Assembly (NCBI RefSeq): GCF_007750855.1
Contig: NZ_CP036291.1
Location: forward strand, 6,484,905-6,548,904
Direction of reading: 5' to 3'
Source: Pirellulimonas nuda
GTDB taxonomy: Bacteria > Planctomycetota > Planctomycetia > Pirellulales > Lacipirellulaceae
DNA length: 64,000 bases
A program made the translations under genes and the position numbers. Numbering within the stretch: position 1 is the stretch's first letter; every line of letters starts with the position of its first letter. Shown here piece by piece: positions 2,101 to 56,570 of this stretch. Under the pieces are notes generated by a model. That model did not search any database. It saw only the letters and a list, made by a program, of their open reading frames with translations, and was not told the origin of the DNA.

Positions 2101-2247
2101 GCAGCCCCCCAAGGCAAGCGGGGGGCCGTTCGCGCGCCGCAATCGGGCCGGCGGCGCTAACTGCTTGCGGCGCCTGCACTTCGCTCTTGGCAGGCGGCGG
2201 GCCGCGGGATCGCGACGCGGCGATTTCGCCACACGGCCCGCGGGGGC

Positions 2248-2267
2248 GCGTGGCGGAAACGCCACGC
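2248..2267. other. 8-bp perfect hairpin with GAAA loop
   Basis: The arms GCGTGGCG (2248-2255) and CGCCACGC (2260-2267) enclose a GAAA tetraloop, an exceptionally stable RNA hairpin if transcribed. It lies between the small secreted frame and the TPR gene. No T tract follows on either strand, so it is not a classical terminator. Function unknown. The rest of 2101-2515 shows nothing else I can support. Confidence 0.4.
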
Positions 2268-2515
2268 CCCGGCGGGGCCGGGTCTAGGTGTCCACCCCTC
2301 CGCGGGGTGCGGCGTTTGCCCGGTCGACAGGACCGACAACTCCGGAAGACTCGATTTTCTGGCCGTTACTGCCTGCGCCGCACCGGTTTACGGCGCGACT
2401 TTTGGCGGAGTGTTTGGGCCCCGGGCCGCGTAGGGATAGAATCCAGGCGCTGCGTCGGGGTCGGGCGCAGCAACGACGATGTTCAACGCGCACGCCCAAT
2501 TTGGAGAGCCCGCAC

Positions 2516-3031
2516 GTGGTCCGACTCGCAGCCAAACAACTCGAAAAAGCGACGCTGGAAGCGGAAGGTTACCTAGAGCTGGGGATGAGGCCACACGCCC
2601 TGGCCGCGCTGCAGCGACGCGGCAAACTAGTGCACGGCGACGCCCGGGCCTGCTACCTGCTGGGCGAAACGCTCCGCGAGCTGGACCGTTACCGCGACGC
2701 CCTCTACCCGCTGCAACGCAGCGCCGCCCTGGACGGCGACAACCTGCACGTGTGGCTCGCGCTGGGGTGGTGTTACAAACGGACCGGGCAGCTCCGGCGG
2801 GCGATCGAGGCCCTGGAGCGCGCCATGGAGCACGAGCCGCGTCAGGCGATCTTGCACTACAATCTGGCCTGCTACTGGAGCCTCGCCGGGCAACGCGGGC
2901 CCGCGATCGAGTGCCTGGCGCGGGCGCTGGAGCTGGACGCGGAGTTCCGCTACCTGATCCCCGAAGAGCACGACTTCGACGCGATCCGCAACGACCCCGA
3001 CTTCCGCATGCTCACGGCGGTGGTGGTTTAG
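2516..3031 (+). CDS. tetratricopeptide-repeat protein
   Basis: A protein of 171 residues made almost wholly of TPR helices. Units are visible around LELGMRPHALAAL, YLLGETLRELDRYRDAL, WLALGWCYKRTGQLRRAI and YNLACYWSLAGQRGPAI, ending in the common tail DFDAIRNDPDF. Such proteins are scaffolds for protein contacts; no enzymatic role is visible. The frame stays open far upstream, but GTG at 2516 is chosen because a GGAGAG ribosome-binding site lies about 8 bases before it and the upstream residues are low in complexity. It is convergent with the BBP7 gene; a hairpin terminator lies between them. Confidence 0.8.
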   Translation: MVRLAAKQLEKATLEAEGYLELGMRPHALAALQRRGKLVHGDARACYLLGETLRELDRYRDALYPLQRSAALDGDNLHVWLALGWCYKRTGQLRRAIEALERAMEHEPRQAILHYNLACYWSLAGQRGPAIECLARALELDAEFRYLIPEEHDFDAIRNDPDFRMLTAVVV

Positions 3032-3153
3032 GCATCGGCGCTCGAAAGCGGGATGGGCCGGGTCCGAAGCGAGGGGACTCCGGCTCCTTTCGCACCGAGC
3101 CCCATGACGGGCCAGCGTCCCCCCGCGGTGGACTCGACCCATCCAACAAAACA

Positions 3154-3187
3154 AAACCGCCCGGTCGCTTGAGCGACCGGGCGGTTT
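3154..3187. terminator. intrinsic terminator between convergent genes
   Basis: A perfect 15-bp stem (3154-3168 with 3173-3187) has a TTGA loop. Read on the minus strand it is followed by a T-rich run (TTTTGTTTTGTT), which makes it a strong terminator for the BBP7 gene ending at 3215. On the plus strand it can also end the TPR transcript, though the T run there is weaker. Confidence 0.85.
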
Positions 3188-3214
3188 GTTCGTTTCACGT
3201 GTAGCAGCCGGCGA

Positions 3215-5062
3215 CTAGAACTTGCACTCGGCGCCCAACTGCAGGCCTTGCAGGAAGAGCGAGTCGGTCGAGTCGATGTAGCCGACGTGGCGGTGGTTCA
3301 TCCAGTTGCTCGGCACCTGGTTCTGCGCCGTGGCGATGCCGGAGACCGCGATCAAGCGGTACGCGGCGGTGGCCCGCCACCGGCAGCTAAGCTGGTAGGC
3401 GACGCCGGTGCGGAGCTCGCCCAAGAAGGCGACTTGGTCCTTGTCGGAGCGGACCGCGGCGTCGCCGCCGGTGCCGACAAACCGCACCATGCCGCCGCCG
3501 TCGGTGTAGACGCGTTGGTAGGCCTCGATGTGGTTGTTGTAGACGCCGAAGTTGGTGTCCGCGAAGACCGACCAGTGGCACCCACACATCCAGTTCATGC
3601 TGCAGCCAAGCTGGAAGCCGACCATGTTGTTGTCGACCTCGATGTCGTGCAGCAGCACGTTGTCGTCTGGCGGGAAGCCACCCACGTAGGCGGTGGGGTT
3701 GGTTCCGACGGGGGCGGGCATGACGCCGCCGGCGCCGTCGTCAACGGTGAACATCACCGCGTTCTGGAAGCTCTCGTCCAGCTTCAGGTAGCGTACGCCC
3801 AGCAGGCCGTTGCACACAAAGCGGCGCTTCGGGGCGCAGGTGTTGCAGGACATCGGGGCGCACCCGTCGTAGCCGCCGCAGTCGGAGACCGCGGTGCAGG
3901 CGCCGTAGCCGGCGCTGGGGCTGCAACCCGCGGACGAGGGGGTGCCGAACCGCCAGAAGTTGAGCTCGACGTTCTGGGCGTTAAACGACTGACGCACGCG
4001 GTTGGCCAGCACGCGGATGTCGTTCACACCCGGCTGGTACGGCATCGCGTCTTCGATGGGCATCTGATAGTCGTAGTAGTGATTCACCGGGCGGTAGGCG
4101 TAGTTGGCGCCGCCGGTGCCGTCGCGGTCGTACTCGATGCCGGCGTAGTTGATGTTGCCGTACATACGCGTAGTGCCGCCGAAGTTGTCGGTCATCAGGG
4201 CCGTTTCGGTCTGATCCGCGATGCCCCAGTAGCCGAGCTCCCAAGCAAAGGGGCGGGTCCCCGAGCAGTCGCAGGCCGAGGCGCAACCGAAGGTGCTGCC
4301 GAAGCGGATCTCACCCCCCCCCTGGATGCCGGGGTTGGCGGCGTTGCTGGAGAGGTAGGTGACCGAGTCGTTCGGGTAGTACGGGTAGGCGGCCGGCGTG
4401 TTGGGCACGTACGTGGCCACCTTGGTGTCGCCGATGTTGCTGCGCTGCAGCAGCAGGCCGTAGGCGCCCACAAACCACTGCCGGCGCGGCGTGGGGGTGT
4501 AGCAGCCCGCGCCGTAGTCGCAGCAGCCCGAGTCGGGGTAGCCGGCATAGCCGCTGCACCCGGTGGTGCAGCCGGCGGCCGGGGCCCCGGTGTAGCCCGA
4601 CCAATCGGCCGCGCCTTGGTTGCAGTTGCAGTCGCCCTGCGCGGGGCTGCCCGAGTAGGCGGCCGGGTGCGAGTACGCCTCGGCCGACGGGTAGCTGTTG
4701 TAGCCCCCCTGCGGCGCGGGCATCGGCTGACCGGGCTGCTGGCCCATCGCCGGCGCGGGCGCTGGGTTCACCGGTCGCGCCGGCTGAGGCACTTGTTCTT
4801 GCGGCGTCGGCAGGTCGGCGTTCTGCGCGGCGTAGGCGACACGCGGCGCGGGGCCGTAGTTCACCTGCGGGTAGGCCGGCGGCTGAGTCGCCTGCTGCTG
4901 GTAGTAGGGCTGTGGGTAGGGCTGCTGCGCGGGCGCCTGGGGGCGCTGGGCGGGCGAGTAGGCGCCGGGCCCGTAGGCCGGGTACTGCGCCGCCGCCATC
5001 TGGGCGAGCATCGCTGCGAGCGCGAACGTCGCGCCGCGTGTAGCCTGAGACTGGAGCTTCAT
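3215..5062 (-). CDS. BBP7-family outer-membrane beta-barrel protein
   Basis: A 615-residue protein with a signal peptide (MKLQSQATRGATFALAAMLA, cut near AAAQ). A proline/glutamine/tyrosine-rich segment covers about residues 26-135. Clusters of closely spaced cysteines follow (DCNCNQ, GCTTGCSGY, GCCDYGAGC, CASACDCSG, CAPMSCNTC). The C-terminal half has alternating polar and aromatic strands ending in ECKF, a terminal phenylalanine as in outer-membrane barrels. The motif RRRQWFVGAYGLLLQR-like start of the barrel (about 197-212) and the YLKLDESF and GFQLG elements match the planctomycete BBP7 group. It probably sits in the outer membrane; its cargo is unknown. The pairs of cysteines suggest disulfide cross-links. 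Confidence 0.75.
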   Translation of the reverse strand: MKLQSQATRGATFALAAMLAQMAAAQYPAYGPGAYSPAQRPQAPAQQPYPQPYYQQQATQPPAYPQVNYGPAPRVAYAAQNADLPTPQEQVPQPARPVNPAPAPAMGQQPGQPMPAPQGGYNSYPSAEAYSHPAAYSGSPAQGDCNCNQGAADWSGYTGAPAAGCTTGCSGYAGYPDSGCCDYGAGCYTPTPRRQWFVGAYGLLLQRSNIGDTKVATYVPNTPAAYPYYPNDSVTYLSSNAANPGIQGGGEIRFGSTFGCASACDCSGTRPFAWELGYWGIADQTETALMTDNFGGTTRMYGNINYAGIEYDRDGTGGANYAYRPVNHYYDYQMPIEDAMPYQPGVNDIRVLANRVRQSFNAQNVELNFWRFGTPSSAGCSPSAGYGACTAVSDCGGYDGCAPMSCNTCAPKRRFVCNGLLGVRYLKLDESFQNAVMFTVDDGAGGVMPAPVGTNPTAYVGGFPPDDNVLLHDIEVDNNMVGFQLGCSMNWMCGCHWSVFADTNFGVYNNHIEAYQRVYTDGGGMVRFVGTGGDAAVRSDKDQVAFLGELRTGVAYQLSCRWRATAAYRLIAVSGIATAQNQVPSNWMNHRHVGYIDSTDSLFLQGLQLGAECKF

Positions 5063-5454
5063 CCTTGAACTCTCCTGTTAGTCCGTCGTGGGTCGCGACG
5101 GCCGGGGCGGCGCGGGCCGTTCTGGGCCGATCGTTCTTGCTGAGAGGCGCGCGTCCGCCGCGGGCCCCAAGCCGAGGGATTACGGGCCCCCGGCTGAGAC
5201 GCGGGTAAGCGCCTCACCAGACGTTTTCGACCGTGGCGGACCGTGCCGGCGCTACAATTCGCGCATCCGGACCTAGGAACGACCGAGCGCGGCCGCTACA
5301 CGCGCAACGCTGAGAAAAGAGGCCGCAGAGGCCCGGCGCCGCTTAATCGGAAAAGCTTGCCTCACGCGACCAGGGGGCCGGGCTATCCGCGAGCCGGGCC
5401 GTCCTCGGCCCCGGCGCGGGGGCCGGACGCGTGTGTGGCAGAATCACCCGCACC
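5063..5454. other. gene-free stretch upstream of BBP7 gene and downstream of parA
   Basis: About 390 bases without a believable gene. It must hold the 5' leader and promoter of the BBP7 gene (read leftwards from 5062), but I could not find a convincing -35/-10 pair. Short open frames here show no domain or signal. Confidence 0.4.
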
Positions 5455-5489
5455 GCGCCGGGGGCGGGGGCGGGGACGCCCCGGCTCGC
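5455..5489. repeat. G+C-rich REP-like element
   Basis: The unit GCGCCGGGGGCGGGG followed by ACGCCCCGGCTCGC is shared with 39930-39958 and, inverted, with 39876-39904; a shorter related copy is at 26045-26063. Here a GGCGGG step is duplicated. It lies just downstream of the parA stop codon. No coding potential. Confidence 0.6.
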
Positions 5490-5517
5490 TGGCGGCTCGG
5501 TGGGAGGGCGGGCGGCG

Positions 5518-6336
5518 CTAGGCGGCCGTGGTCAGCAGCTTGCGGCCGGCGTAGTAGGCTTCTACCTCGGCGCCGAGCGAGGCGTAGTCTTCGGCACCAC
5601 GCGAGTCGGCGGCGTAGCCGAAGATCGACTGCCCGAAGCTGGGCGCCTCGGCCAGGCGGATGTTGCGGCGCACGCGGGTTTCGAACAACCGCACGCTGCT
5701 CCAAACCGGGCCCGAGCCGCGGAGCTGGCCGAAGAACCGGCCGACGTCTTCGCTTACCTCGGTCGCTAGGCGGGTGCCCGATTCGTACATGCAGAGCACC
5801 ACTCCGGCCATCCGCAGCCGCGGGTTGAGCCGCTCGGACACCAGGCCGACCGTCTGCATCAGCTTCGACAGGCCGTGCAGCGCCAAGAAGTGGGGCTGCA
5901 TCGGCAGGAAGACGTCCTCGACCGCGGTAAGCGCGTTGAGCGTCAGCACGCCGAGCGACGGGGGGCAGTCGATCAGCAGGTAGTCGAAGCGGTCTGCTTG
6001 CGACGCTAGCTTGTCTCGCAGGATCACCTCGCGTCCCACCACGCCGGCCAGCTCGACCTCTACGGCGGCCAGGTCGATGTGCGCGGGGGCGACCTGCAGG
6101 TTCGTGTCGCCGTGGCGCCACAGGTCGTCCAGCGTGGCGTCGCCGGCCAGCAGGTCGTACATCGTGGCTTCGGGCCGCTTGGGGTCGACCCCCAGGTGGA
6201 TCGACGCGTGGGCCTGGGGGTCCATGTCCAGCAGGCCGACGCGGAACCCGGAGCGGGCCAGGGCGGCGCTCAGGTTGACGGCCGTGGTGGTTTTCCCCAC
6301 GCCCCCTTTCTGATTAATGACCGCGATCGACCGCAT
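5518..6336 (-). CDS. ParA/Soj-family ATPase
   Basis: A 272-residue protein of normal ParA length. It has the deviant Walker A KGGVGKTTT (10-18), LLDMDPQAH (35-43) and Walker B LLIDCPPSLG (120-129). The family's ATP-dependent DNA-bound patterns position chromosomes, plasmids or protein complexes. No parB or parS cluster is adjacent, so it may be an orphan ParA for cargo positioning rather than the chromosomal Soj. ATG at 6336 starts directly at the conserved MRSIAVINQKGG. It stands alone on its strand; the ABC operon diverges from it across a 362-base gap. Confidence 0.9.
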   Translation of the reverse strand: MRSIAVINQKGGVGKTTTAVNLSAALARSGFRVGLLDMDPQAHASIHLGVDPKRPEATMYDLLAGDATLDDLWRHGDTNLQVAPAHIDLAAVEVELAGVVGREVILRDKLASQADRFDYLLIDCPPSLGVLTLNALTAVEDVFLPMQPHFLALHGLSKLMQTVGLVSERLNPRLRMAGVVLCMYESGTRLATEVSEDVGRFFGQLRGSGPVWSSVRLFETRVRRNIRLAEAPSFGQSIFGYAADSRGAEDYASLGAEVEAYYAGRKLLTTAA

Positions 6337-6366
6337 GGGGATTCCTCTATCTGGCGTGAAAGCTTC

Positions 6367-6394
6367 CTAGCCGACGGGCTACGCCCCGTTGGCG
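6367..6394. repeat. short palindromic intergenic repeat
   Basis: The unit CTAGCCGACGGGCTACGCCC followed by CGTTGGCG is nearly identical to 63836-63863 at the other end of the window. It can fold as an imperfect hairpin (CCGACGGG with CCCGTTGG). Confidence 0.6.
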
Positions 6395-6698
6395 CGGCGT
6401 CCCCACGGGGGCGGGAGTCTAGATGCACGCCCCACCCCAGGCCCAGAGCAATCGCCCCCTGGAAAGAAGTGGTGGGCCGACTGGGGCGCCTGGGAGATTT
6501 ATCCGAACCGGCCCCGGCGGGGGTCCGTAGCGTAAGAGTCGCCCCTGAAAACCGCTGCGCACCGGTCGCGGCGGGCCGGGCGGCCGCCTAGACAACCCAG
6601 AGCAACCAGGGCTACCCTAACGGGCCAGTGCGGGTTTTTTCGCCAAGGATCCGCTGCTAGCGGCCCCGCCGCCCCTTCTTCCGGAGCAACGCACAACG
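6395..6698. other. gene-free stretch between parA and the ABC operon
   Basis: About 300 bases containing the divergent control region of parA and the ABC operon. A CCGGAG ribosome-binding site lies 12-17 bases before the ATG at 6699. I see no clear promoter hexamers and no gene. Confidence 0.4.
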
Positions 6699-7496
6699 AT
6701 GAGTGATTCGACGACCGACCCCGCGGACGGGCAGACCAATCGGCCGGAGGCCGTGCCAGGCCGGCCGGAGGCCATGATCGAGGCGGTCGGCCTCTCGAAG
6801 TTCTACGGCGACTTTGCCGCCACGCGGGACGTTACGTTCACGGTCCGCACGGGCGAGGTAGCGGCGTTCCTCGGCCCCAACGGCGCCGGCAAGAGCACCA
6901 CCATGAAGCTGCTCACCGGCTACCTGGCGCCCAGCGCCGGCGAGGCCCGCATCGCCGGCTTCGACATGTTCAAGGATCGCATCGACGGCTCGCGGCGGCT
7001 GGGCTACCTGCCGGAGAACGGCCCCCTCTACCCGGACATGTCGCCCCGATCGAGCCTGCAGTTCTTCGGCCGGATCCGCGGCCTGAGCACGGCGCAGATC
7101 GAAGACCGCATCGAGAAGGTGGTCGACCTGTGCCGGCTCTCCAGCGTGATCGGCAAGCCGGTCGGCAAGCTCTCCAAGGGCTTCCGTCAACGCGTCGGCA
7201 TGGCCCAGGTGCTGCTGCACGAGCCGGACGTGCTGATCCTGGACGAGCCGACCGCGGGGCTCGACCCCAACCAGATCCGCGAGGTGCGCAAGATGATCCG
7301 CACGCTGGGCGAGACCAAGACCATCCTGCTGAGCACGCACATCCTGCAGGAAGTAGAGGCCATGTGTAACCGCGTGATCTTTATCAACGAGGGGCGCGTC
7401 GTGTTCGACGGCACGCCGCTGGGTTTCAAAGCGGCCGAGGCCGACCTTGACCAGCGGTTCCAGCAGCTCACCAGCGGCGGCGCCGCCATCGCGTAA
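6699..7496 (+). CDS. ABC transporter ATP-binding protein (GldA-like)
   Basis: A 265-residue ATPase with Walker A GPNGAGKST (59-67), signature LSKGFRQ (158-164), Walker B VLILDEP (178-184), the D-loop GLD and switch histidine in LSTHIL. The first 25 residues are a polar extension before the domain proper (MIEAVGLSKFYG); an internal start at residue 26 is possible. It is followed on the same strand by a fused permease/GldG-like protein and a DUF4340 protein, the usual neighbourhood of ABC-2 systems related to GldAFG of gliding bacteria. It should energise that membrane complex. The substrate is unknown and motility is not implied. Confidence 0.9.
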   Translation: MSDSTTDPADGQTNRPEAVPGRPEAMIEAVGLSKFYGDFAATRDVTFTVRTGEVAAFLGPNGAGKSTTMKLLTGYLAPSAGEARIAGFDMFKDRIDGSRRLGYLPENGPLYPDMSPRSSLQFFGRIRGLSTAQIEDRIEKVVDLCRLSSVIGKPVGKLSKGFRQRVGMAQVLLHEPDVLILDEPTAGLDPNQIREVRKMIRTLGETKTILLSTHILQEVEAMCNRVIFINEGRVVFDGTPLGFKAAEADLDQRFQQLTSGGAAIA

Positions 7497-7501
7497 GTGA
7501 A

Positions 7502-7680
7502 ACCACAGAGTCACTAAGGACACTGAGACGGACAGAGGAACCAGGAAAGCCCAATGTCCAAGCCCCAATGACCAAGAGATGAAACGCGGTAGTTCAGTTG
7601 CAATTGGTTATTCAGGCTTGATCATCGGTTGTTTTGATTTCTTTCTCTGTTCGTCTCTGTGACCTCCGTGGCTCTGTGGT
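7502..7680. repeat. inverted-repeat element inside the ABC operon
   Basis: The left arm (7502-7538, ACCACAGAGTCACTAAGGAC...) and right arm (7642-7680, ...GTGGCTCTGTGGT) are imperfect complements and belong to the family seen at 14685-14988. A second short motif between them (CCAATGTCCAAG, CCAATGACCAAG) recurs at 25956-26018. It separates the ATPase from the permease gene by 235 bases. Confidence 0.65.
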
Positions 7681-7731
7681 GAGTTTTTATTGCTTTCCAA
7701 TCACCAGTCTCTACTCACCACGACCCAACTG

Positions 7732-10554
7732 ATGAACTGGACGATTATCCACGCGATCTTCCGTCGCGACTTCGTGAGCTACTTCTCGAACCCGACCGGC
7801 TACGTCTTCATCTGCGTGTTCGTGATGCTCAGCAGCCTGGCGGCGTTCTGGCCGCCGGAGTTCTTCGCCAACAACCTGGCGAACCTCGACCAGCTCAGCA
7901 CCTGGATGCCGTTCATCCTGCTGGTGTTCGTGCCGGCGATCACCATGAGCACCTGGGCGGAAGAACGCCGCCAGGGGACCGACGAGCTGCTGCTGACGCT
8001 CCCCTCGACCGACGTCGACGTGGTGTTGGGCAAGTACCTGGCCGCCGTGGCCATCTTCACCGTCGCGCTGCTGTTCAGCATGGTCTCGGTGCTGCTGGTG
8101 TTCCTCTACGGGCTCGGTGAGCCCGACCTCGGTTTGTACGTGGGCGCCTACCTGGGCTACTGGTTTGTCGGCCTGGCGATGCTGTCGATCGGCATGGTGG
8201 CCTCGTTCCTTACTTCGAACCTCACGGTCGGCTTCATCCTGGGCATGCTGTTCAACGCCCCGCTGGCGATCGCCGGCGTGGCGGACTGGGTGGTGAAAGA
8301 CCCCGCGATGGCCCAGGCGGTCCGCCGCTGGAGCGCGCTGGAGCAGTTCGCCGACTTCCAACGCGGCGTGTTCACCCTCAGCGGAGCGGTTTACTTCCTC
8401 AGCATCGCGGCCGTGATGCTGTACGTGAGCATGATCCTCATCGGCCGCCGGCACTGGACCGGCGGGGCCGACGGCGCCTCGCGCGGCGGGCACTTCCTCA
8501 CCCGCGTGGTGGCCCTGCTGCTGGTCGCCGGGGCGGCCAACTACGCCCTGTCGAACCTGGGCTGGGGACGCGCCGACCTGTCGGTCGAGCAGCTCAACTC
8601 GCTCTCCCCCAAGACCAAAGAGATGGTCCGCAAGCTGGCCGACGACAAAGACGTGCGGCCCATCCGCGTGACCGCCTACGTCAGCCCCCAGGTCCCCAGC
8701 GAGCTGGCCGCCCAGAAACGCGACCTGCTGGCCACGCTCCGCGAGCTGCAAAGCATCTCCGGCGGCAAGGTGCAGGTAGACGTCAACCAGATCGAGACCT
8801 TCAGCGAAGAAGCCACCTACGCCGAACGCAACTTCGGCATCGAGGCCCGCGACGTCGAGACGACCCAGCGCGGCGCCCGCACCCGCGAAGAGGTGTTCCT
8901 CGGCGCCGCGTTCGAGTGCGGGCTGGACAAGGTGGTGATCCCGTTCTTCGACCGCGGCATCCCGGTGGAGTACGAGGTGGTCCGCTCGATCGCCACGGTC
9001 GCCCAGCAGAAGCGTAAGCGCGTGGGGGTGGTGAAGACCGCCGCCAGCCTGCTGGGGGGCTTCAACATGCAGTCGATGGGCCAGAACGAAGAATCCCAGC
9101 TCGTGACCGAGCTCAAGAAGCAGTACGACGTCGTGGAGGTCGACCCGGCCGGGCCGATCGCGGACGACTACGACGTGCTGCTGGCGGTGCAGCCCAGTTC
9201 GCTGCGGCCCGAGCAGCTCGACAACTTTGTCGCCGCGGTCAAGGCCGGCATCCCGACCGCCATCTTCGAAGACCCCTACCCCGTGACCGACTTCGCCGCC
9301 ACGACCGTGGGCACCGCTCAAGACAACCGTCCCGCGGGCGGCCCGATGGCCATGTTCGGCGGGGGCCAGGCCGAGCCCAAGGGAGACATCTCGCAGCTCT
9401 GGCGGCTGCTGGGGGTGCGGTTCGACGGCCAGCAGCTTGTCTGGCAAGAGTACAACCCCTACCCCGGCGCCGAGGCCTTCACCACGCCCGACTGGGTGTA
9501 CGTTGATCAGGACAACGGCGCCGAGGAGCCGTTCAACCCCGCGAACATGATCTCGAACGGGATGAAGCAGGTGCTGTTCTTGTTCGCGGGCTCGGTGGCG
9601 CCGGCGCCGGGGTCGAAGCTCGACTTCCAGCCGCTGGCGGTCACCAACGAAGCGCGTTCCGGGGTCATGAGCTACCAAGAGGCCGAGATGGCCGCCCGGT
9701 CCCCCAACATGGCCCGCCGCTCCCCGCCCACGCGCACCACCAGCTACGTGATCGCGGCGGAGATCAGCGGCAAGCCCCCCGAGGAAGACTCGCTCTCGGC
9801 GGACGAGGTCAACACCGGCGAGCTGAGCGAAGAAGACCTGAAAGAAGAGAAGCCGGCCGGCGCCGACTCCAAGGAGAAGGAGCCCGCGACGCCGCCGATC
9901 AAGGCGGTGGTGGTGGCGGACATCGACTGCCTGAGCAACATCTTCTTCATGATCCGCGCCCTGGGCGACCAAGAGGGTTCGCCGGTGGACTGGCGGTTCC
10001 AGAACACCACGTTCGTGCTGAACATCCTCGACTCGCTGGCGAATGACGAGCGGTTTGTCGACATCCGCAAGCGGACCCGCGAGCACCGCACGCTGACGCT
10101 GATCGAAGACGCCACTTACGAGGCCCGCAAGGAGGCCCTGACCGAGCGTTCGGAGTTCAGCAAGGAAGCCGAAGAGCAGATCGAGCTGGCGCAGCAGAAG
10201 TTCCGCGAGGCGATCGACGAGATCCGCAACCGCCCCGGGCTCTCGGCGCAGCAGAAGGCCGTGCTGGTGGACCAGGAGCAGGCCCGCCGGCAGCGGATGC
10301 TGGACGTCGAGACCAACCGCCTCCGCCAGAGCGCCCAACGCAAGACGCGGCAGATCGAGCGCGACCTCACCGCCGAGGTGCGGGGCGTGCAGGACTTCTT
10401 CAAGTTCACGGCCGTGATCCTGCCGCCGATCTTGCCGATCCTGCTGGCCGCGATCGTCTTCTTCCACCGCCGCCAGGCGGAGCAAGAAGGGGTGGCGAAA
10501 GAACGCCTGCGGTTCCACACGGCGGAACAGGAACCGGTCGTTAAGAAAGATTAA
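7732..10554 (+). CDS. fused ABC-2 permease (GldF-like) and GldG-like protein
   Basis: A protein of 940 residues from ATG 7732; the frame reaches back to a TTG at 7690, but MNWTIIHAIFRRDFVSYFSN is the typical permease start. Residues 1-250 hold about six membrane helices with the ABC-2 motif WAEERRQGTDELLLTLP. A further helix (LTRVVALLLVAGAANYAL) leads into the periplasmic GldG-type domain (PF09822: VEQLNSLSPKT, VRPIRVTAYVS). A charged coiled-coil stretch (EEQIELAQQKFREAIDEI) precedes a final membrane helix (FTAVILPPILPILLAAIVFF). GldF and GldG are separate genes in Bacteroidota; here they are one polypeptide. With the upstream ATPase and downstream DUF4340 protein it should form one transport complex of unknown cargo. 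Confidence 0.85.
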   Translation: MNWTIIHAIFRRDFVSYFSNPTGYVFICVFVMLSSLAAFWPPEFFANNLANLDQLSTWMPFILLVFVPAITMSTWAEERRQGTDELLLTLPSTDVDVVLGKYLAAVAIFTVALLFSMVSVLLVFLYGLGEPDLGLYVGAYLGYWFVGLAMLSIGMVASFLTSNLTVGFILGMLFNAPLAIAGVADWVVKDPAMAQAVRRWSALEQFADFQRGVFTLSGAVYFLSIAAVMLYVSMILIGRRHWTGGADGASRGGHFLTRVVALLLVAGAANYALSNLGWGRADLSVEQLNSLSPKTKEMVRKLADDKDVRPIRVTAYVSPQVPSELAAQKRDLLATLRELQSISGGKVQVDVNQIETFSEEATYAERNFGIEARDVETTQRGARTREEVFLGAAFECGLDKVVIPFFDRGIPVEYEVVRSIATVAQQKRKRVGVVKTAASLLGGFNMQSMGQNEESQLVTELKKQYDVVEVDPAGPIADDYDVLLAVQPSSLRPEQLDNFVAAVKAGIPTAIFEDPYPVTDFAATTVGTAQDNRPAGGPMAMFGGGQAEPKGDISQLWRLLGVRFDGQQLVWQEYNPYPGAEAFTTPDWVYVDQDNGAEEPFNPANMISNGMKQVLFLFAGSVAPAPGSKLDFQPLAVTNEARSGVMSYQEAEMAARSPNMARRSPPTRTTSYVIAAEISGKPPEEDSLSADEVNTGELSEEDLKEEKPAGADSKEKEPATPPIKAVVVADIDCLSNIFFMIRALGDQEGSPVDWRFQNTTFVLNILDSLANDERFVDIRKRTREHRTLTLIEDATYEARKEALTERSEFSKEAEEQIELAQQKFREAIDEIRNRPGLSAQQKAVLVDQEQARRQRMLDVETNRLRQSAQRKTRQIERDLTAEVRGVQDFFKFTAVILPPILPILLAAIVFFHRRQAEQEGVAKERLRFHTAEQEPVVKKD

Positions 10555-10690
10555 CCACTGAGCCACACAGACCACGGAGACGACCGGGAGACCAACTACA
10601 GAAAGACTCTCGCAGAGGCGCAGAGACGCAGAGGAGTCAGCGCTGACTCCAACGATGACTTCCTCTGCGTCTCTGCGCCTCTGCGAGAGA
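10555..10690. repeat. inverted repeat with 29-bp perfect arms
   Basis: The arms at 10607-10635 and 10661-10689 (CTCTCGCAGAGGCGCAGAGA... and its complement) are a perfect 29-bp match. Between them lies an 18-bp perfect palindrome, GGAGTCAGCGCTGACTCC (10633-10650). The flank at 10555-10590 (ACCACTGAGCCACACAGACC) is a half copy of the related family. It lies between two genes of the ABC operon, 60 bases before the DUF4340 start. Confidence 0.85.
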
Positions 10691-10753
10691 TAATTTGGAG
10701 TGCGATCCAGGACCCTCCGTAGTGTGCTTTTTAGCTATGAGTATGCGAGAACT

Positions 10754-12952
10754 ATGAACGAATCCACCAAGACCTTCCTGTTCGTTGGCGTCGCCGCGGC
10801 GTGCGTGGCCGCCGCGGTTGCGACGCGTCCCCAGGCGATCGACCTGGAACGCGAGGCCCAGAGCCGCACCGGCAAGCCGCTGGTCGTCAAGTTCGACCCC
10901 GAGCAGGCGGCCCGGCTGCGGATCACCCGCTTCAACGAAGAGACCGCCACGCTCAGCGAGTTCGAGGTGGCCGAACGCGACGGCGTTTGGACCCTCCCCT
11001 CCAAGAGCGGCTACCCGGCCGACGCCGAGAAGCAGATGGGCGAGGCGGCCGCCGGCGTGATGGACCGCGAGGTGCTGCGGATCGCCAGCAAGCTGCCGGC
11101 CGACCACGAGGAGTACGGCGTCGTCGACCCCAAGAGCAGCAAGCTGGCCGTGGGGCAGACCGGCGTCGGCGTCCGCGTGGCGATGCTGGACGGCAGCGAC
11201 AAGCCGCTGATCGACCTGATCATCGGCAAGGAGGTCAAGGGCTCCGAGAACCAGCGCTACGTCCGACTCGCCGACCAGGACGTGGTGTACGTGGTGGACG
11301 TCGACCCCAGCAAGTTCCCCACCAAGTTCGACGACTGGATCGAGGACGACCTGCTCAAGATCAACCCGTGGGACCTGGAGCAGGTGACCCTGGACAACTA
11401 CAGCGCGTCTGCCGAGCTGGCGATGACGGCCGATGGCCGGATCGTGCCGCAGCTCAAGCAGAGCTACGACGACCAGATGACGCTCACCTACGACGACGGC
11501 GCCGGCGAGTGGCAGGCGAAGCGGATCGCCGTGTACGACAACCTCAAGCAGGGGTACGACGAGGTTGAGCTGTCCGCAGAACAAGAGCTGGACCCGGACA
11601 AGCTGCGAGAGCTCAAGGACGCGCTGGACAACCTGAAGATCGTCGACGTCGAACGCAAGCCCGAAGGGCTCAGCGGAAGCCTCAAGGCGGGCGAAGACTT
11701 CCTCAAGGACACCGCCACGATCGAGAGCCTGGCCCGACGCGGCTTCCTGGCCGTGGGGCGCCGCGGCGGCGGCGTCGAGCTGATCTCCAGCGAAGGAGAG
11801 TTTGTGGCCACGATGAAGGACGGCGTCGAGTACGTCCTGCGGTTCGGCGGCCTGCAAGCAGACGAAGACGAGGCCGCCCAGCCCGCCGCGGGCGCCGACC
11901 CAGATGCGTCCGCCGATGGCGCCCCGGAAGAGGCCGGCGGCGTGAACCGCTACTTGTTCGTGATGGCCCGCTTCGACGAGAACGCGATCGAGAAGCCGGA
12001 GCTGGAAGAGCTGCCGGCCCTGCCCGAGGGCGCCCAGGAGCCCAAGGACGAATCGGCAAACGACGAACCCGCCGACGACGAGCCCGCCAAAGACGACGCG
12101 GACACGCCCGACGCCGACAAGCCGGCCGATGACGAAGCGGATGGCGAAGCGGGCGACGAAAAGAAGGACGACGCTGCGGCCGAAGACGCCGACGGAGCCG
12201 CCAAGGCGGGCAACAGCGAACTGGTGGACGAGGTCATCGCCCAGCGGAAAGAGATTGAGCAGTCCAACCAGCGCAAGCTGGACGCCTACCAAGAGAAGAT
12301 CAAGGCGGGCCAGGAGCGGGTCAAGGAGCTCAACGCCCGCTTCGGCGACTGGTACTACGTGATCTCCAACCAGGTCTACCAGAAGATCCACCTCACCCAC
12401 AAAGACGTCATCAAGACCAAAGAGGCGCCCGAGGGCGAAGCGGCCAGCGAATCGGCGCCCCCCGCCGGCGCCGGCGGCATCCAGGGCCTGCCGAACCTGG
12501 GCGGCATGCTCGGGGGACCGGGCGGCCCGCCCAACGCCCCGGCCGAAACCACCCCCGACCCCGCGGCCGAAGAGATGACGCCGGAAGCAGAAGGGTCGGA
12601 CGAGGCAGAGCCGTCAAAGGAAGAATCGGAGCCTTCAGCGAAAGATGCTGAGCCCTCAGTGGAAGACGCTGAGCCTTCAGCGGAGGACGCGGAGCCCTCA
12701 GCAGAGGAATCCGAGCCCTCAGCAGAAGATGCGGAGCCCTCAGCCGAAAACGCAGAGCCCGCTAGCGAGAAGATGGAGTCGGAGGACGCGGAGCCTTCGG
12801 CAGAGGAATCCGAGCCATCAGCGGAAGAATCGGAGCCTTCAGCAGAAAAACCAGAAGCCTCTGCGGAGGATGGGAAGCAGCCGGCCGAGCCGGCCGACGA
12901 GCCTGATGCGCCGCAGTCCGACCCGGCGGAAGAGGACGGGGCGGGTCGGTGA
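10754..12952 (+). CDS. DUF4340 domain protein with acidic repetitive tail
   Basis: A 732-residue protein. ATG 10754 is chosen because a membrane anchor starts there (MNESTKTFLFVGVAAACVAAAVATRP). DUF4340-type sequence follows (PLVVKFDPEQAARLRITRF, YVVDVDPSKFP). From about residue 400 the protein is very acidic, broken by a folded or coiled segment (ELVDEVIAQRKEIEQSNQRK, then GDWYYVISNQVYQKIHL). The last 115 residues are degenerate repeats of EPSAEDAEPSAEESEPS type. DUF4340 proteins lie beside GldG-like ABC systems, as here, and are probably an extracytoplasmic partner. The repeat tail is unusual. Confidence 0.8.
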   Translation: MNESTKTFLFVGVAAACVAAAVATRPQAIDLEREAQSRTGKPLVVKFDPEQAARLRITRFNEETATLSEFEVAERDGVWTLPSKSGYPADAEKQMGEAAAGVMDREVLRIASKLPADHEEYGVVDPKSSKLAVGQTGVGVRVAMLDGSDKPLIDLIIGKEVKGSENQRYVRLADQDVVYVVDVDPSKFPTKFDDWIEDDLLKINPWDLEQVTLDNYSASAELAMTADGRIVPQLKQSYDDQMTLTYDDGAGEWQAKRIAVYDNLKQGYDEVELSAEQELDPDKLRELKDALDNLKIVDVERKPEGLSGSLKAGEDFLKDTATIESLARRGFLAVGRRGGGVELISSEGEFVATMKDGVEYVLRFGGLQADEDEAAQPAAGADPDASADGAPEEAGGVNRYLFVMARFDENAIEKPELEELPALPEGAQEPKDESANDEPADDEPAKDDADTPDADKPADDEADGEAGDEKKDDAAAEDADGAAKAGNSELVDEVIAQRKEIEQSNQRKLDAYQEKIKAGQERVKELNARFGDWYYVISNQVYQKIHLTHKDVIKTKEAPEGEAASESAPPAGAGGIQGLPNLGGMLGGPGGPPNAPAETTPDPAAEEMTPEAEGSDEAEPSKEESEPSAKDAEPSVEDAEPSAEDAEPSAEESEPSAEDAEPSAENAEPASEKMESEDAEPSAEESEPSAEESEPSAEKPEASAEDGKQPAEPADEPDAPQSDPAEEDGAGR
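12600..12870 (+). repeat. degenerate in-frame 15/30-bp tandem repeats
   Basis: The 3' end of the DUF4340 gene repeats a GAGCCCTCAGCAGAAGA-type unit about fifteen times, encoding (D/E)(A/S)EPSAE. The unit length keeps the frame, so copy number can vary without breaking the gene. Confidence 0.8.
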
Positions 12953-52759: not shown

Positions 52760-54013
52760 CTAGCCCAGGTCGATCACCGCGGCGGCCGCTTGGCCGTAGG
52801 AGTTGAAATTGACGGCCAAGAACGTGTCGAAGTCGGCGGGGATCGGCTCGGTCATCACGTTGACAGGGCAGGCTGGGTCGGGGGTTTCGTAGTTCAGGGT
52901 GGCGGGGATGCGCCCGTTCGCGGCGCCGATCAGCGTCACCGCCAGCTCGACCGCGCTCCCCGCGGCGTCGATGTTGCCCAGGAAGCTCTTGGGAGCGGTT
53001 ACCGGCACGTCGCCCAGCACGGAACGGATGGCGCGGGCTTCGCCGATGTCGTCCAATCGCGTGCTGACCCCGTGCGCCTTCACGAGCCCGATGTCGCTCG
53101 GCTTGGCGCCCGCCAACTCGAGCGCTCCGCCGATGGCCTGCTCCACTGCGCGTCCGGTCGGTTGACGGTTGTAGACTGCGCCCTCGCACCGGCTGGCGAC
53201 GCTCCGCACACGGGCCAGCGGCGCCCGACCGCGGCGGCGTGCGTGGCTGGCGCTCTCGAGCACCAGGATGGCGGCGCCCTCGCCGAAGACCTGCCCGGAG
53301 CGACCCGCGTCGAACGGACGGCAGATCTTGGCCGGATCGGCGTCGCTGCACGACGCGTTGAGCATGCCCCGCCAGGCAAGGTCGGCCAGGTGCAGCCGGC
53401 TGCTGCTGCCGCCGGTGATCATCACATCGGCCACGCCGCGGCGTATCGCGGCCGCGGCCTCGCCCAGCGCCAGCAGGCTAGAGACCTCGCCGCTGAGGAT
53501 GGTGTTGTTGGGCCCTCGGGCGTCGCGCCGGATGCCGATGTGGCAAGCAGACATGTTCGGCAGGTACTTCAGCATCCACAGAGGGAAGAACTCCCCCATC
53601 GCGTTCTTGCCCCAGCGATCGTACTCGAAGCCCTCGTCGCCGATCGTGGCTCGGTAGGGGGCCTCCATCTCGGCAAAGTCGCTGAACAGAAACCCGGCGC
53701 CGCAGACCACGCCCAGGCGCTCTGGCTCCACCGAACCGTCTTCGAGCCCCGCGTCGGCCCAGGCCTGCTCGGCAGCGGCGAACGCGAACTGGATCTCCTG
53801 AGCCATCACCTTCAGGCTCTTGCGCGGGGTGACGAACTGCTTCGCGTCGAACCCCTCGATCGTGCCGCCAAACGGCGCTGGCCATCCGGCGTCCGCTAGC
53901 GCAGGGGCGTGGCGGATGCCGGTGCGGCCCGCGCGCAGCGAGGCCCAGACCTCATCGCGGCCGACGCCGATGGGGGTTACGAGGCCCAGTCCGGTGATGA
54001 CAACATCTTCCAA
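52760..54013 (-). CDS. ketosynthase-like protein lacking the catalytic cysteine
   Basis: A 417-residue protein of FabF length and fold: VITGLGLVTPIGVGRDEVWASLRAGRTGI at the start, FGEGAAILVLESASHA, and VNFNSYGQAAAAVI at the end. By alignment with FabF the catalytic cysteine is Glu176 (GPNNTILSGEVSS, where FabF has ATACTSG), the first histidine is kept (His314, KAHGVSTRLDD), the lysine is kept (Lys342), and the second histidine is Asn347 (KSFLGNIDAAG). So it should not condense acyl chains. It may be a chain-length-factor-like partner or a decarboxylase. Start is TTG 54013. No intact ketosynthase or acyl carrier protein is adjacent. Confidence 0.85.
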   Translation of the reverse strand: MEDVVITGLGLVTPIGVGRDEVWASLRAGRTGIRHAPALADAGWPAPFGGTIEGFDAKQFVTPRKSLKVMAQEIQFAFAAAEQAWADAGLEDGSVEPERLGVVCGAGFLFSDFAEMEAPYRATIGDEGFEYDRWGKNAMGEFFPLWMLKYLPNMSACHIGIRRDARGPNNTILSGEVSSLLALGEAAAAIRRGVADVMITGGSSSRLHLADLAWRGMLNASCSDADPAKICRPFDAGRSGQVFGEGAAILVLESASHARRRGRAPLARVRSVASRCEGAVYNRQPTGRAVEQAIGGALELAGAKPSDIGLVKAHGVSTRLDDIGEARAIRSVLGDVPVTAPKSFLGNIDAAGSAVELAVTLIGAANGRIPATLNYETPDPACPVNVMTEPIPADFDTFLAVNFNSYGQAAAAVIDLG

Positions 54014-54254
54014 GTGCGTGCCGTCCGTTCGCGGCGAGTGAAACGGTAGGGGGACGAATAAATTAGTCTAGTTGTAGGGGCGGGGCGTCTCAACGAGGGC
54101 GCCGGCGATTGGGGACCCCCGGCCGCATGAGCCAGAGACAACCTTCCTGAACCCAGACGAAACGGCGGTGTTCCCACCTATCGACCACACGCGCCGCCGA
54201 CCATCGCCCCCCTGCCGGTTGCGCGGGTTGCAGGGCCGGCCGGTCTCCCAACGA
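54014..54254. other. gap between acyltransferase-like and ketosynthase-like genes
   Basis: 241 bases, both neighbours on the minus strand. It must contain the start region of the ketosynthase-like gene. No hexamers, hairpin or gene that I can support. Confidence 0.4.
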
Positions 54255-55388
54255 TCAAGCAAGCGGTTTGTCGTACACCCGGTACTTCTTGTATTTGAGG
54301 GCGCCCCCTTTCTCGAGTGATTTTCGCGACAAGTCGTTCGATTCCAGCACCCAGGAGAACTCTGCCTCGCGGATGCCGAACTTCAGCGAGGGGCCAAGCA
54401 TCGCGTAGGCCAGCGTCACCCCCACGCCCCAGCTCTGGTACTTGGGGATCACGTTGGTGCTCACCAGCCGGATCCGCTTGATCGCCCGCTTGTTGTACAG
54501 CAACCGGAGGAACCCGAACGGGTAGAGCCGACCGTCGATCTTCTTGATGCGTGTGTTGTAGTCAAGCAGCGCAAAGACCACCCCCACCGGCTCCCCTTCG
54601 ACCTCGGCCACGATCGCAAGCTCCGGCACGATCAGGTGCTTGAGTTCTGCGGCGAGGTGGTGGATCTCTGCCTTCGAGAGCGGCACGTGCCCCCAAGTCT
54701 GCGACATCGCTTCGTTGTAGATCCTGAGAAACATCTCCACTTCTTCACGGAAACGCGAGCGGTCCATGTCGCGGACGGTGACGCCGAAGCGTTCGCGGAT
54801 CTGCTGGTCGATCCGGATCACCTTGGTGTCCTTCTTCAGCTCTTGCAGCATGGCGACTTCGCCATAGAAGGCGAACAGGTCCTGCGCCTTGGCGAACCCG
54901 GACGCCTCGACCAGGGCGGGGTAGTAGGGGGGGTTATGGGTCATCATGAAGAACGGCGGCGTGTCGAAGCCGTCGATCAGCATGCTCCACTCGTAGTTGA
55001 GCGAGGGGTTGGCCGGCCCGCGAATCACGGTCATCTCACGCTCGGCGAGCCAGGCGCCGGCCGCGTCGAACAAGGCGCCCGAAACCGCCGGGTCGTCGAC
55101 CGACTCAAAAAAACCGAAGAAGCCGACCTTGTCCTTCTGAGTGCGGTTGTGGGCGTGGTTGATGATCGCCGAGATCCGGCCCACGGGCTTGCCGCCCCGC
55201 AGCGCAAGGAACTGCTGCGTCTGGGCGTCGTTGTAGAAGGGGTGTTCGCCGAAACCCGCCAGCAGCCGCTGATTAGCGCGCAGCGGCGGGACCCAGTTCG
55301 GATCGCCCGCGTTGATCTTCCAGGGGAGCGCCAGGAACTGTTTCTGCTGCTTAGAGCCGACGACCGGCACGACTTCTACCTGCGACAT
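54255..55388 (-). CDS. GNAT-fold N-acyltransferase-like protein
   Basis: A 377-residue protein: FLALPWKINAGDPNWVPPLRANQRLLAG, GRISAIINHAHN, VIRGPANPSLNYEWSMLIDGFDTPPFFMMTHNPPYY, and the end EFSWVLESNDLSRKSLEKGGALKYKKYRVYDKPL. This pattern belongs to a large uncharacterised bacterial family with two GNAT-like folds. The end motif (WVLE.N...R.....G....K.YRVY) is diagnostic. Acyl donor and acceptor are unknown; the neighbouring ketosynthase-like gene suggests lipid chemistry. ATG 55388; the upstream in-frame codons are repetitive. Confidence 0.8.
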   Translation of the reverse strand: MSQVEVVPVVGSKQQKQFLALPWKINAGDPNWVPPLRANQRLLAGFGEHPFYNDAQTQQFLALRGGKPVGRISAIINHAHNRTQKDKVGFFGFFESVDDPAVSGALFDAAGAWLAEREMTVIRGPANPSLNYEWSMLIDGFDTPPFFMMTHNPPYYPALVEASGFAKAQDLFAFYGEVAMLQELKKDTKVIRIDQQIRERFGVTVRDMDRSRFREEVEMFLRIYNEAMSQTWGHVPLSKAEIHHLAAELKHLIVPELAIVAEVEGEPVGVVFALLDYNTRIKKIDGRLYPFGFLRLLYNKRAIKRIRLVSTNVIPKYQSWGVGVTLAYAMLGPSLKFGIREAEFSWVLESNDLSRKSLEKGGALKYKKYRVYDKPLA

Positions 55389-55562
55389 CCGGCCCTCGGG
55401 GCAGCGGGAACGGGTGATGGGAATGACTGGCGGCCCAAGTCTTGCGACAGGACCTAGAAGGTGCGAGTGTAGTCGCTCGCCGCCCGGCGGTGGACCCTGC
55501 CCGGGAGAATAGGGGCCTTGAGGGGTAAAGAACTGCACCGATAGCGTGTACGAGTGGTGGCT

Positions 55563-56570
55563 ATGCAACAGGTTCTTGTTACCGGCGCCAGCGGGTTTAT
55601 TGGGCAGCGTCTTGTCGAAAGACTACGGTCAGATGGGCACGACGTGGCCTGCCTGGTCCGCCGGCGATCACGCACCCAGCGGCTAGAAGCACTGGGCGCC
55701 AGGCTGATTTCAGGGGACGTCACCCGGCCCGAATCGCTCCCGGCGGCGCTCGAGGGGGTCCAGCGGGTCATCCACCTAGCGGGGCTGACGCACGCCCGCA
55801 CGCTAGCGGACTTTCTAGCCGTGAACGAAGCGGGCGCCGGCGCCCTGGCCGAGGCCTGCGCCCGACAAGCCTCGCCGCCGGTACTGCTGATGGTCAGCTC
55901 GCTGGCGGCCGCCGGGCCGTCGCCCGAGGGGGCGGCCCATCGCGAGGCAGACCCCTGCCGGCCCGTTTCCCAGTACGGAAAAAGCAAGTTGGCCGGCGAG
56001 CAGGCGGTCCGCCGCTGGGCCGGTGAGACGCCGATCACGATCCTCCGCCCGCCGGTGGTTTTCGGGCCGGGGGATCGCGACGGGCTCACGTTGTTCCTGG
56101 CGGTACGCCGGTTCCCGATCCACTTGGTGCCCAATCTCAAGGGGCTGCCGCTTTCGTTGGTGTACGTCGACGACCTGGTCGACGCGATGGTCCGGGCCGT
56201 GGACCAAGGAGAACGCCTCACCGCGATGGACGGCTCCGCGGGGCAGGGGGTCTACTATGCCGCCGATCCGGCTGTTAGCTCGTACGCCGAGATGGGGCGG
56301 TTGGCCTCCGCGGCGCAGGGGCGGCGCGTGCTGGTGATCTGCCGGCGAAAGTACCCGTTCCTTATCCCTGCGCTAGCCGGCGACGCCGTGAGCTGGCTGA
56401 CGGGCAAGCCGACGCTGTTCAGCATGGACAAGCTACGCGAGGCGAGCGCCACGGGCTGGGTTTGCAGCAGCCAGAAAGCGGCCGAGCAGCTCGGCTTTGC
56501 GGCGCCTATTCCGCTTGTCGAGCGGTACCAGCAGACGGCCGAGTGGTACCGGGCCGAGGGTTGGATTTAG
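55563..56570 (+). CDS. NAD-dependent epimerase/dehydratase (extended SDR)
   Basis: A 335-residue protein with TGASGFIGQRL (TGxxGxxG), the active-site YGKSK (Tyr-x-x-x-Lys) in PVSQYGKSKLAGEQ, and ILRPPVVFGPGDRDGL. It matches the group acting on nucleotide sugars or isoprenoid-like substrates; substrate not assigned. Start at ATG 55563; GTG 55554 also possible. It diverges from the acyltransferase-like gene and overlaps the next gene convergently by 65 bases. Confidence 0.88.
   Translation: MQQVLVTGASGFIGQRLVERLRSDGHDVACLVRRRSRTQRLEALGARLISGDVTRPESLPAALEGVQRVIHLAGLTHARTLADFLAVNEAGAGALAEACARQASPPVLLMVSSLAAAGPSPEGAAHREADPCRPVSQYGKSKLAGEQAVRRWAGETPITILRPPVVFGPGDRDGLTLFLAVRRFPIHLVPNLKGLPLSLVYVDDLVDAMVRAVDQGERLTAMDGSAGQGVYYAADPAVSSYAEMGRLASAAQGRRVLVICRRKYPFLIPALAGDAVSWLTGKPTLFSMDKLREASATGWVCSSQKAAEQLGFAAPIPLVERYQQTAEWYRAEGWI

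Follow-up and report, generated by a model that had tools for sequence, protein, structure and literature searches.

Chain-length factors (CLFs) are known from polyketide and aryl-polyene pathways (context in PMC8358021). In the actinobacterial type (ActI-ORF2, structure 1tqy_B) the CLF, like the protein described here, has a ketosynthase fold without the catalytic cysteine, and its gene adjoins that of an intact ketosynthase (KS), overlapping it in the three pairs fetched. In planctomycetes, two FabF paralogues of Rhodopirellula baltica without this cysteine, RB3714 (Asp163, His298, His333) and RB4527 (Glu163, His298, Lys328, Asn333), were reported by Rattray et al. in 2009 with no function assigned (PMC2649909). 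The accessible sections of that paper treat them in the context of ladderanes and mention no partner, pairing or phylum-wide family. Here we analyse KS-E, encoded at 52760..54013 on the minus strand of a 64,000-nucleotide stretch of Pirellulimonas nuda (contig NZ_CP036291.1, positions 6,484,905 to 6,548,904; hereafter the window), and the family to which it belongs. KS-E is probably a non-condensing, chain-length-factor-like subunit paired with an intact KS. What is new here is the co-occurrence of the KS-E family with that KS; the loss of Cys in the two R. baltica paralogues has been known since 2009.

The gene, an open reading frame (ORF) with a TTG start backed by Pfam, alignment and predicted fold, encodes a Cys-less ketosynthase homologue of 417 residues (P0001). 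It matches the Pfam domains ketoacyl-synt (1-252 of 252) and Ketoacyl-synt_C (1-119 of 119) in full, and the ketosynthase (KAS I/II) fold is present over the entire chain. A structural comparison with FabF and CLFs, proposed in an earlier note on this DNA, agrees with this: the predicted structure is a complete KAS-II fold with a mean pLDDT (predicted local distance difference test) of 96, its top Foldseek match is 1e5m (1.4e-41), and the VIA-align Z is 61.5 against the best FabF and 58.9 against the actinorhodin CLF 1tqy_B. The top NCBIfam match, TIGR03150, scores 244 bits, the cut-off of the model being 494.

The earlier note had placed Glu176 at the catalytic Cys and Asn347 at the second His (His2), with His314 and Lys342 kept, and the alignment with FabF together with a string search bears this out. 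Glu176 (codon 53486..53488) stands for Cys, His314 (53072..53074) is the first His (His1), Lys342 (52988..52990) is the Lys and Asn347 (52973..52975) stands for His2, all codons being on the minus strand and located by alignment and arithmetic from the start codon. The Cys-His-His triad is absent from P0001, which reads E176, H314 and N347, and so is the GFGG gating loop near the C-terminus, where NFNSYGQA is found instead. An alignment bringing Cys157 (SACHIG) or another Cys to the catalytic position was looked for and not found; Cys157 was rejected as the nucleophile, being 19 residues before position 176 and aligned with the ..NMASAHIA segment of FabF.

The KS-E family and an intact ketosynthase as its proposed partner

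The window gene has orthologues (E below 1e-90) in 55 of the 59 genomes searched, its own included, none of them with an internal stop; G009, G022, G043 and G050 hold weaker relatives only. Position 176 is Asp or Glu in all 29 other loci fetched from this search. Random decay, which the earlier note had already argued against, was rejected on these intact orthologues and on the family-wide acid. In an all-species scan, which gave at least 537 relatives and kept the 80 best, 78 of 79 loci carry a planctomycete name, and L079 is labelled 'bacterium'. Identity to plasmid records is at most 36% among the matches listed (40).

Among 166 Cys-less KS-E, position 176 is E in 79, D in 79, S in 4 and G, A, N or Q in one each. 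Since this set was picked for the absence of Cys (it leaves out two L176 sequences, the window duplicate L006 and the truncated L134), its lack of Cys is no result, and the tree clade provides the independent check. The largest Cys-free clade with the window gene, taken from a 181-row ketosynthase tree in which the catalytic columns were kept and the window counted twice, comprises 154 rows: D 78, E 69, S 4, and A, G and N once each. When one sequence was taken per 70%-identity cluster, 107 of 113 KS-E carried an acid at 176. His1 is kept in 131 of the 166 and Lys in 149, and residue 347 is N in 93 and H in 48. Several deep-branch KS-E have lost His1 (F, M, S, T, Y or G) and are altered at 347 (A, L, E or D), with the interface segment described below kept. 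Judged from these alignments, the acid at 176 is the constant feature while the other active-site positions vary, and vary most in the deep branches; a structural role for the acid would be our guess. Glu with Asn had been thought less usual; within the family this did not hold, E-H-K-N being the commonest catalytic quartet (43 of 181 rows, the window counted twice).

Two loci deserve separate mention. L206 (G198; 2150-3541, minus strand) encodes a KS-E with Gln at the Cys position (Q-G-R-E), like chain-length factors and KSQ. L176 (G337; 2882-11307) contains four consecutive ketosynthase genes, two of which encode proteins that lack the Cys and have Asp in place of the first His (F-D-K-H and A-D-K-H); these two are another dead-KS lineage near KS-E.

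KS-E is followed by an intact C-H-K-H ketosynthase in L126 (Isosphaeraceae), L129 and L131 and in the deep-branch loci L170-L173, L175, L177 and L178, KS-E being the upstream gene in the adjacent pairs read. In several such loci the genes are clustered with those of two FabA-like dehydratases, an acyl carrier protein (ACP) of some 130 residues and, in certain cases, a FabG-like reductase, in the order dehydratase, (ketoreductase), ACP, dehydratase, (KS-E), KS; the genes were assigned by Pfam in L171 and L178 and by BLAST in the other loci. An intact KS and a dedicated ACP, which the earlier note had suggested seeking elsewhere in the genome, both exist in the window genome. Its cluster (L188) consists of a FabA-like dehydratase (6596-7090), an ACP (7180-7569) 56% identical to that of L171, a second FabA-like dehydratase (7622-8158) and the intact partner KS (8217-9491), and does not include KS-E. 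A full partner KS was found in 55 of 59 relatives searched, the exceptions being G008 (a fragment), G022 and G033 (canonical FabF only) and G045 (neither). The 29 partner ketosynthases analysed all read C, H, K, H at the four catalytic positions, and GFGG is present in 29 of 29 partners versus 5 of 166 KS-E.

Co-occurrence was determined from profile scores in 294 genomes (300 asked for, at least 90% complete), residues being read only in fetched loci. The partner profile recovered 112 genomes at <=1e-150, separated by a gap from the next best score of 8e-144, and the KS-E profile (E <= 1e-110) recovered 110, all of them within the partner's 112. The set thus divides into 110 genomes with both, 2 with the partner only (G173 and G257), 182 with neither and none with KS-E only. 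In the class Planctomycetia both profiles are positive in 52 of 52 genomes. Outside this class, KS-E and partner lie within 1 kb of each other in 44 of 46 genomes, namely those of the 58 positive genomes for which the place of KS-E is listed; the exceptions are G100 (different contigs) and G277 (7 kb). Family f34 contributes 4 of the 46, and its upstream KS keeps Cys in the two read; excluding f34, the count is 40 of 42. Five class Planctomycetia genomes in the adjacency run, picked as adjacent by eye, are not counted in the 46. In G059, the 13 kb fetched (L212) show the partner only.

In a tree calculated without the four catalytic columns, the 34 rows of KS-E group in a single starred clade (100/99) and the 11 partner KS in a separate one (96/95). 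KS-E is most closely related to L179 and to the Cys-bearing upstream genes of tandem KS-KS pairs (L168, L169), through a weak fork (92/60). Such a topology would fit an intact ketosynthase pair of which one member lost its Cys.

The most conserved 11-residue stretch of KS-E lies outside the old active site, at residues 144-154 (PLWMLKYLPNM; 53552..53584, minus strand), with a conservation of 0.918 compared to 0.666 for the four catalytic positions and 0.541 for the whole chain. In the 29 partners the best stretch is the nucleophile elbow (175-185, 0.921), and 144-154 reaches only 0.612. Trp146 and Tyr150 of KS-E presumably correspond to F133 and T137, which line the pocket in E. coli FabF. In FabF, the loops equivalent to 144-154 of the two subunits touch each other (PMC4528935), and by this homology the segment is expected at the dimer interface of KS-E. 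Position 149 is K or R in 161 of 166 KS-E, and the 29 partner KS carry Glu at 147 without exception, an acid at 149 in 26 sequences and one at 151 in 28. This basic residue of KS-E and the Glu run of the partner may be read as those of a charge-matched heterodimer.

Second copy and gene neighbourhoods

A second copy without the Cys, KSE2 (L008), is present in the window genome and likewise reads E-H-K-N. It is located at 10083-11408 of L039 (minus strand), between nusA-infB-rbfA and a FabG-ACP-FabF locus, and dockerin proteins, one with a PEP-CTERM motif, lie in the region between these flanking loci. KSE2 is at most 40 kb from the canonical FabF in 36 of the 40 genomes with both on one contig, and at most 10 kb in 27; its 56 places were assigned by score rank and not read individually. 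In ten genomes, the window genome among them, that were chosen for having both genes on one large contig, the linear distance between the window-type gene and the partner ranges from 86 kb to 5.3 Mb.

Upstream of KS-E, the window encodes a GNAT-like protein of 437 residues (54255..55568, minus strand) and, divergently, an NAD-dependent epimerase/short-chain dehydrogenase (SDR) resembling HpnA (55554..56570, plus strand). Homologues occur within 6 kb of window-type KS-E in 14 of 61 and 6 of 61 loci, respectively, and a fatty acid desaturase in 17 of 61, while all three were missing from the 19 loci with other KS-E types retained by the same flank criterion. These counts cover loci flanked by 3 kb or more on each side, query loci included, with L057 and L097 being one place counted twice, and 'window-type' covers every locus left unassigned to the other types. 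The gap 54014-54254 was rejected as the site of an ACP gene, since it contains no minus-strand ORF of at least 70 residues. The starts of the GNAT-like and SDR genes overlap by 15 bp, and the pair recurs near some orthologues. The two genes may resemble the bacterial ceramide genes bcerS and cerR, and passages of two papers (PMC11334938, PMC11087976) neither prove nor exclude such an identity.

Downstream of the KS-E/KS pair, in L129 (10685-13540) and L126 (10779-13646), lie an alpha/beta hydrolase (by Pfam on L129) and a GH3-family protein, which we take to be of an acyl-adenylating family. These genes hint at chain release.

Alternative explanations

We propose that KS-E is a ketosynthase-fold subunit that would no longer condense and would act like a chain-length factor. 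It would pair with the Cys-His-His KS of a second, specialised planctomycete fatty-acid or polyketide synthase; condensation would be carried out by the partner KS, with KS-E as the other half of the dimer, and the interface segment (Trp146, Lys149, Tyr150) could shape or close the acyl pocket of the partner. We infer that KS-E and partner form a physical heterodimer, that KS-E affects chain length and that the window KS-E uses the KS 394 kb away. Of the two options left by the earlier note, a non-condensing subunit or a new activity, the former is the better supported, by pairing, co-occurrence and loss of both nucleophile and GFGG loop; the latter gained no positive evidence, His1, Lys and Asn or His2 being variable in relatives.

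Several observations weigh against a subunit of this kind. The 110 co-occurring genomes belong to only 19 families and owe their pattern partly to shared descent, so they are not independent, and in 6 of them (families f34 and f80) the gene, where it was read, is a relative outside KS-E in the strict sense. With the KS-E profile, the partner also reaches scores of up to 400 bits (L215); outside the class the KS-E calls go down to 2e-122 (G059), which leaves a small margin there. The place of KS-E is unlisted in 12 of the 58 positive genomes outside the class, among them G128 with the two genes about 870 kb apart. KS-E and partner KS are 394 kb apart in the window genome, and an adjacent pair was noted in just 6 of 52 class Planctomycetia genomes (including L178, L216 and L217). 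The neighbours of the window gene (GNAT, SDR, and the desaturase in relatives) differ from the cluster of the partner, and KSE2 lies near the canonical FabF, so that the partner may differ from copy to copy. Lys at 149 is shared by 4 of 5 FabF rows, which leaves only the Glu residues of the partner peculiar. Most KS-E keep His1, Lys and Asn or His, more than a pure scaffold needs. G033 (68% complete) and G045 (95%) have KS-E and no partner match at 1e-100, although the assemblies may be at fault since G033 shows only FabF and G045 no FabF. Conversely, G043 and G050 have the partner and only a KSE2-type relative, with no window-type gene.

The retained residues would be explained if KS-E were a KSQ-like malonyl-ACP decarboxylase, in which Glu or Asp replaces Cys and His314 with Asn347, a His-Asn pair of the FabH type, yields acetyl-ACP for priming. 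In its favour, 131 of 166 KS-E keep His1 and 141 have Asn or His at 347, and actinobacterial CLFs (3 of 3) and the KS-E of L206 carry Gln at the Cys position; yet the deep-branch KS-E that lose His1 and residue 347 still keep the interface segment. PF08541 (FabH-type) is matched in 19 of 19 genomes searched, the window genome included, so priming need not depend on KS-E, and a decarboxylase needed in place of a missing FabH was rejected. On balance we regard such an activity as unlikely. Slightly less probable still is a new acyl-transfer or hydrolytic enzyme built on the ketosynthase scaffold and using the carboxylate of Glu/Asp176 with His314. The acid in 158 of 166 KS-E and the company of desaturase (17/61), GNAT-like (14/61) and SDR (6/61) genes would suit it, but its likely second catalytic residue, His314, is absent in 35 of 166 and Lys342 in 17 of 166, the GFGG loop is lost and the conservation maximum falls outside the active site. 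The separate loci in most class Planctomycetia genomes, the recurring neighbours proper to the window-type gene and the KS-E without detected partner in G033 and G045 could also point to a homodimeric scaffold or ACP-binding regulator unrelated to the partner KS, with co-occurrence by shared ancestry only. To this we give the lowest credence, in view of the adjacency in 44 of 46 genomes outside the class, the Glu-rich partner segment facing the basic position of KS-E and the absence of any KS-E-positive genome without partner in the 294-genome set. A CLF-like subunit paired with the intact KS is thus the reading that we favour.

Comparison with known systems

With FabF/KAS II, KS-E has the fold in common, and it differs by lacking the Cys, the second His and the GFGG loop. 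Plain filing as a CLF or as KSQ was rejected on residues. The Gln expected of a CLF at the Cys position is Glu in the window and occurs in 1 of 166 relatives (L206); the intact KS expected beside a CLF gene is 394 kb away in the window genome, and at most 1 kb away in 44 of 46 relatives outside the class. KSQ has Gln for Cys with both His, where the window gene has Glu176 and Asn347. The three actinobacterial CLFs read Q-D-K-R at the four positions, whereas KS-E mostly reads E/D-H-K-N/H. KS-E and actinobacterial CLF are separated in the tree without catalytic columns, but an approximately unbiased (AU) test did not reject their joint clade (p 0.303). The comparison with Gln-bearing CLFs drawn in the earlier note is apt as an analogy, with membership of the CLF clade neither shown nor rejected. 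In the highly reducing aryl polyene system, ApeO-ApeC is a KS and CLF heterodimer accompanied by a ketoreductase, dehydratases and two ACPs (PMC8358021), from which KS-E differs in being full length.

Among planctomycete proteins, RB4527 reads E-H-K-N like the window KS-E and RB3714 has Asp for Cys, and both are probably KS-E family members, as judged from their published residues. We found no paper in the openly accessible PMC literature assigning a function to KS-E-type proteins. Planctomycetes are among the 14 phyla with KS-CLF pairs within 2 kb in a 2023 catalogue (PMC10132072), which may already contain some KS-E/KS pairs. Our results provide a concrete partner candidate for proteins that have had no function since 2009. 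A CLF-like dead subunit seems to be kept throughout a bacterial class, with one copy linked to the main fatty-acid locus; if this is true, an ordinary-looking FabF annotation would in many genomes conceal the half of a lipid synthase that does the shaping.

Anammox ladderane clusters offer a further parallel, since their non-canonical FabF is, like KS-E, Cys-less and is encoded next to an intact gene of the FabF type. In family f52, two genomes each have two tandem pairs in which an intact C-H-K-H KS lies beside a V-N-K-E or F-N-K-E relative (L224/L229 and L233/L231 in G209; L225/L230 and L234/L232 in G191), residues that match those of Kuste3606 and Kuste2805 of Rattray et al. (PMC2649909; ladderane clusters in PMC4790861). 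These residues differ from the E-H-K-N of KS-E, and the ladderane-type FabF form a separate clade in a quick tree (catalytic columns removed, L222 left out). With KSE2 near FabF and the window-type gene among other neighbours, a case can be made for one KS with alternative dead partners. We tentatively suggest, as possible but doubtful, that in the class Planctomycetia one catalytic KS has two competing dead partners (the window-type KSE1 or, instead of it, KSE3; and KSE2), that the chain type would switch when one dead subunit is exchanged for the other and that the charged interface would enforce pairing; the ladderane Cys-less FabF would be another case of this principle, derived separately, in which the dead protein is the partner of the intact FabF next to it. 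The pairing of KS-E is also relevant to what the non-canonical FabF proteins do in ladderane synthesis.
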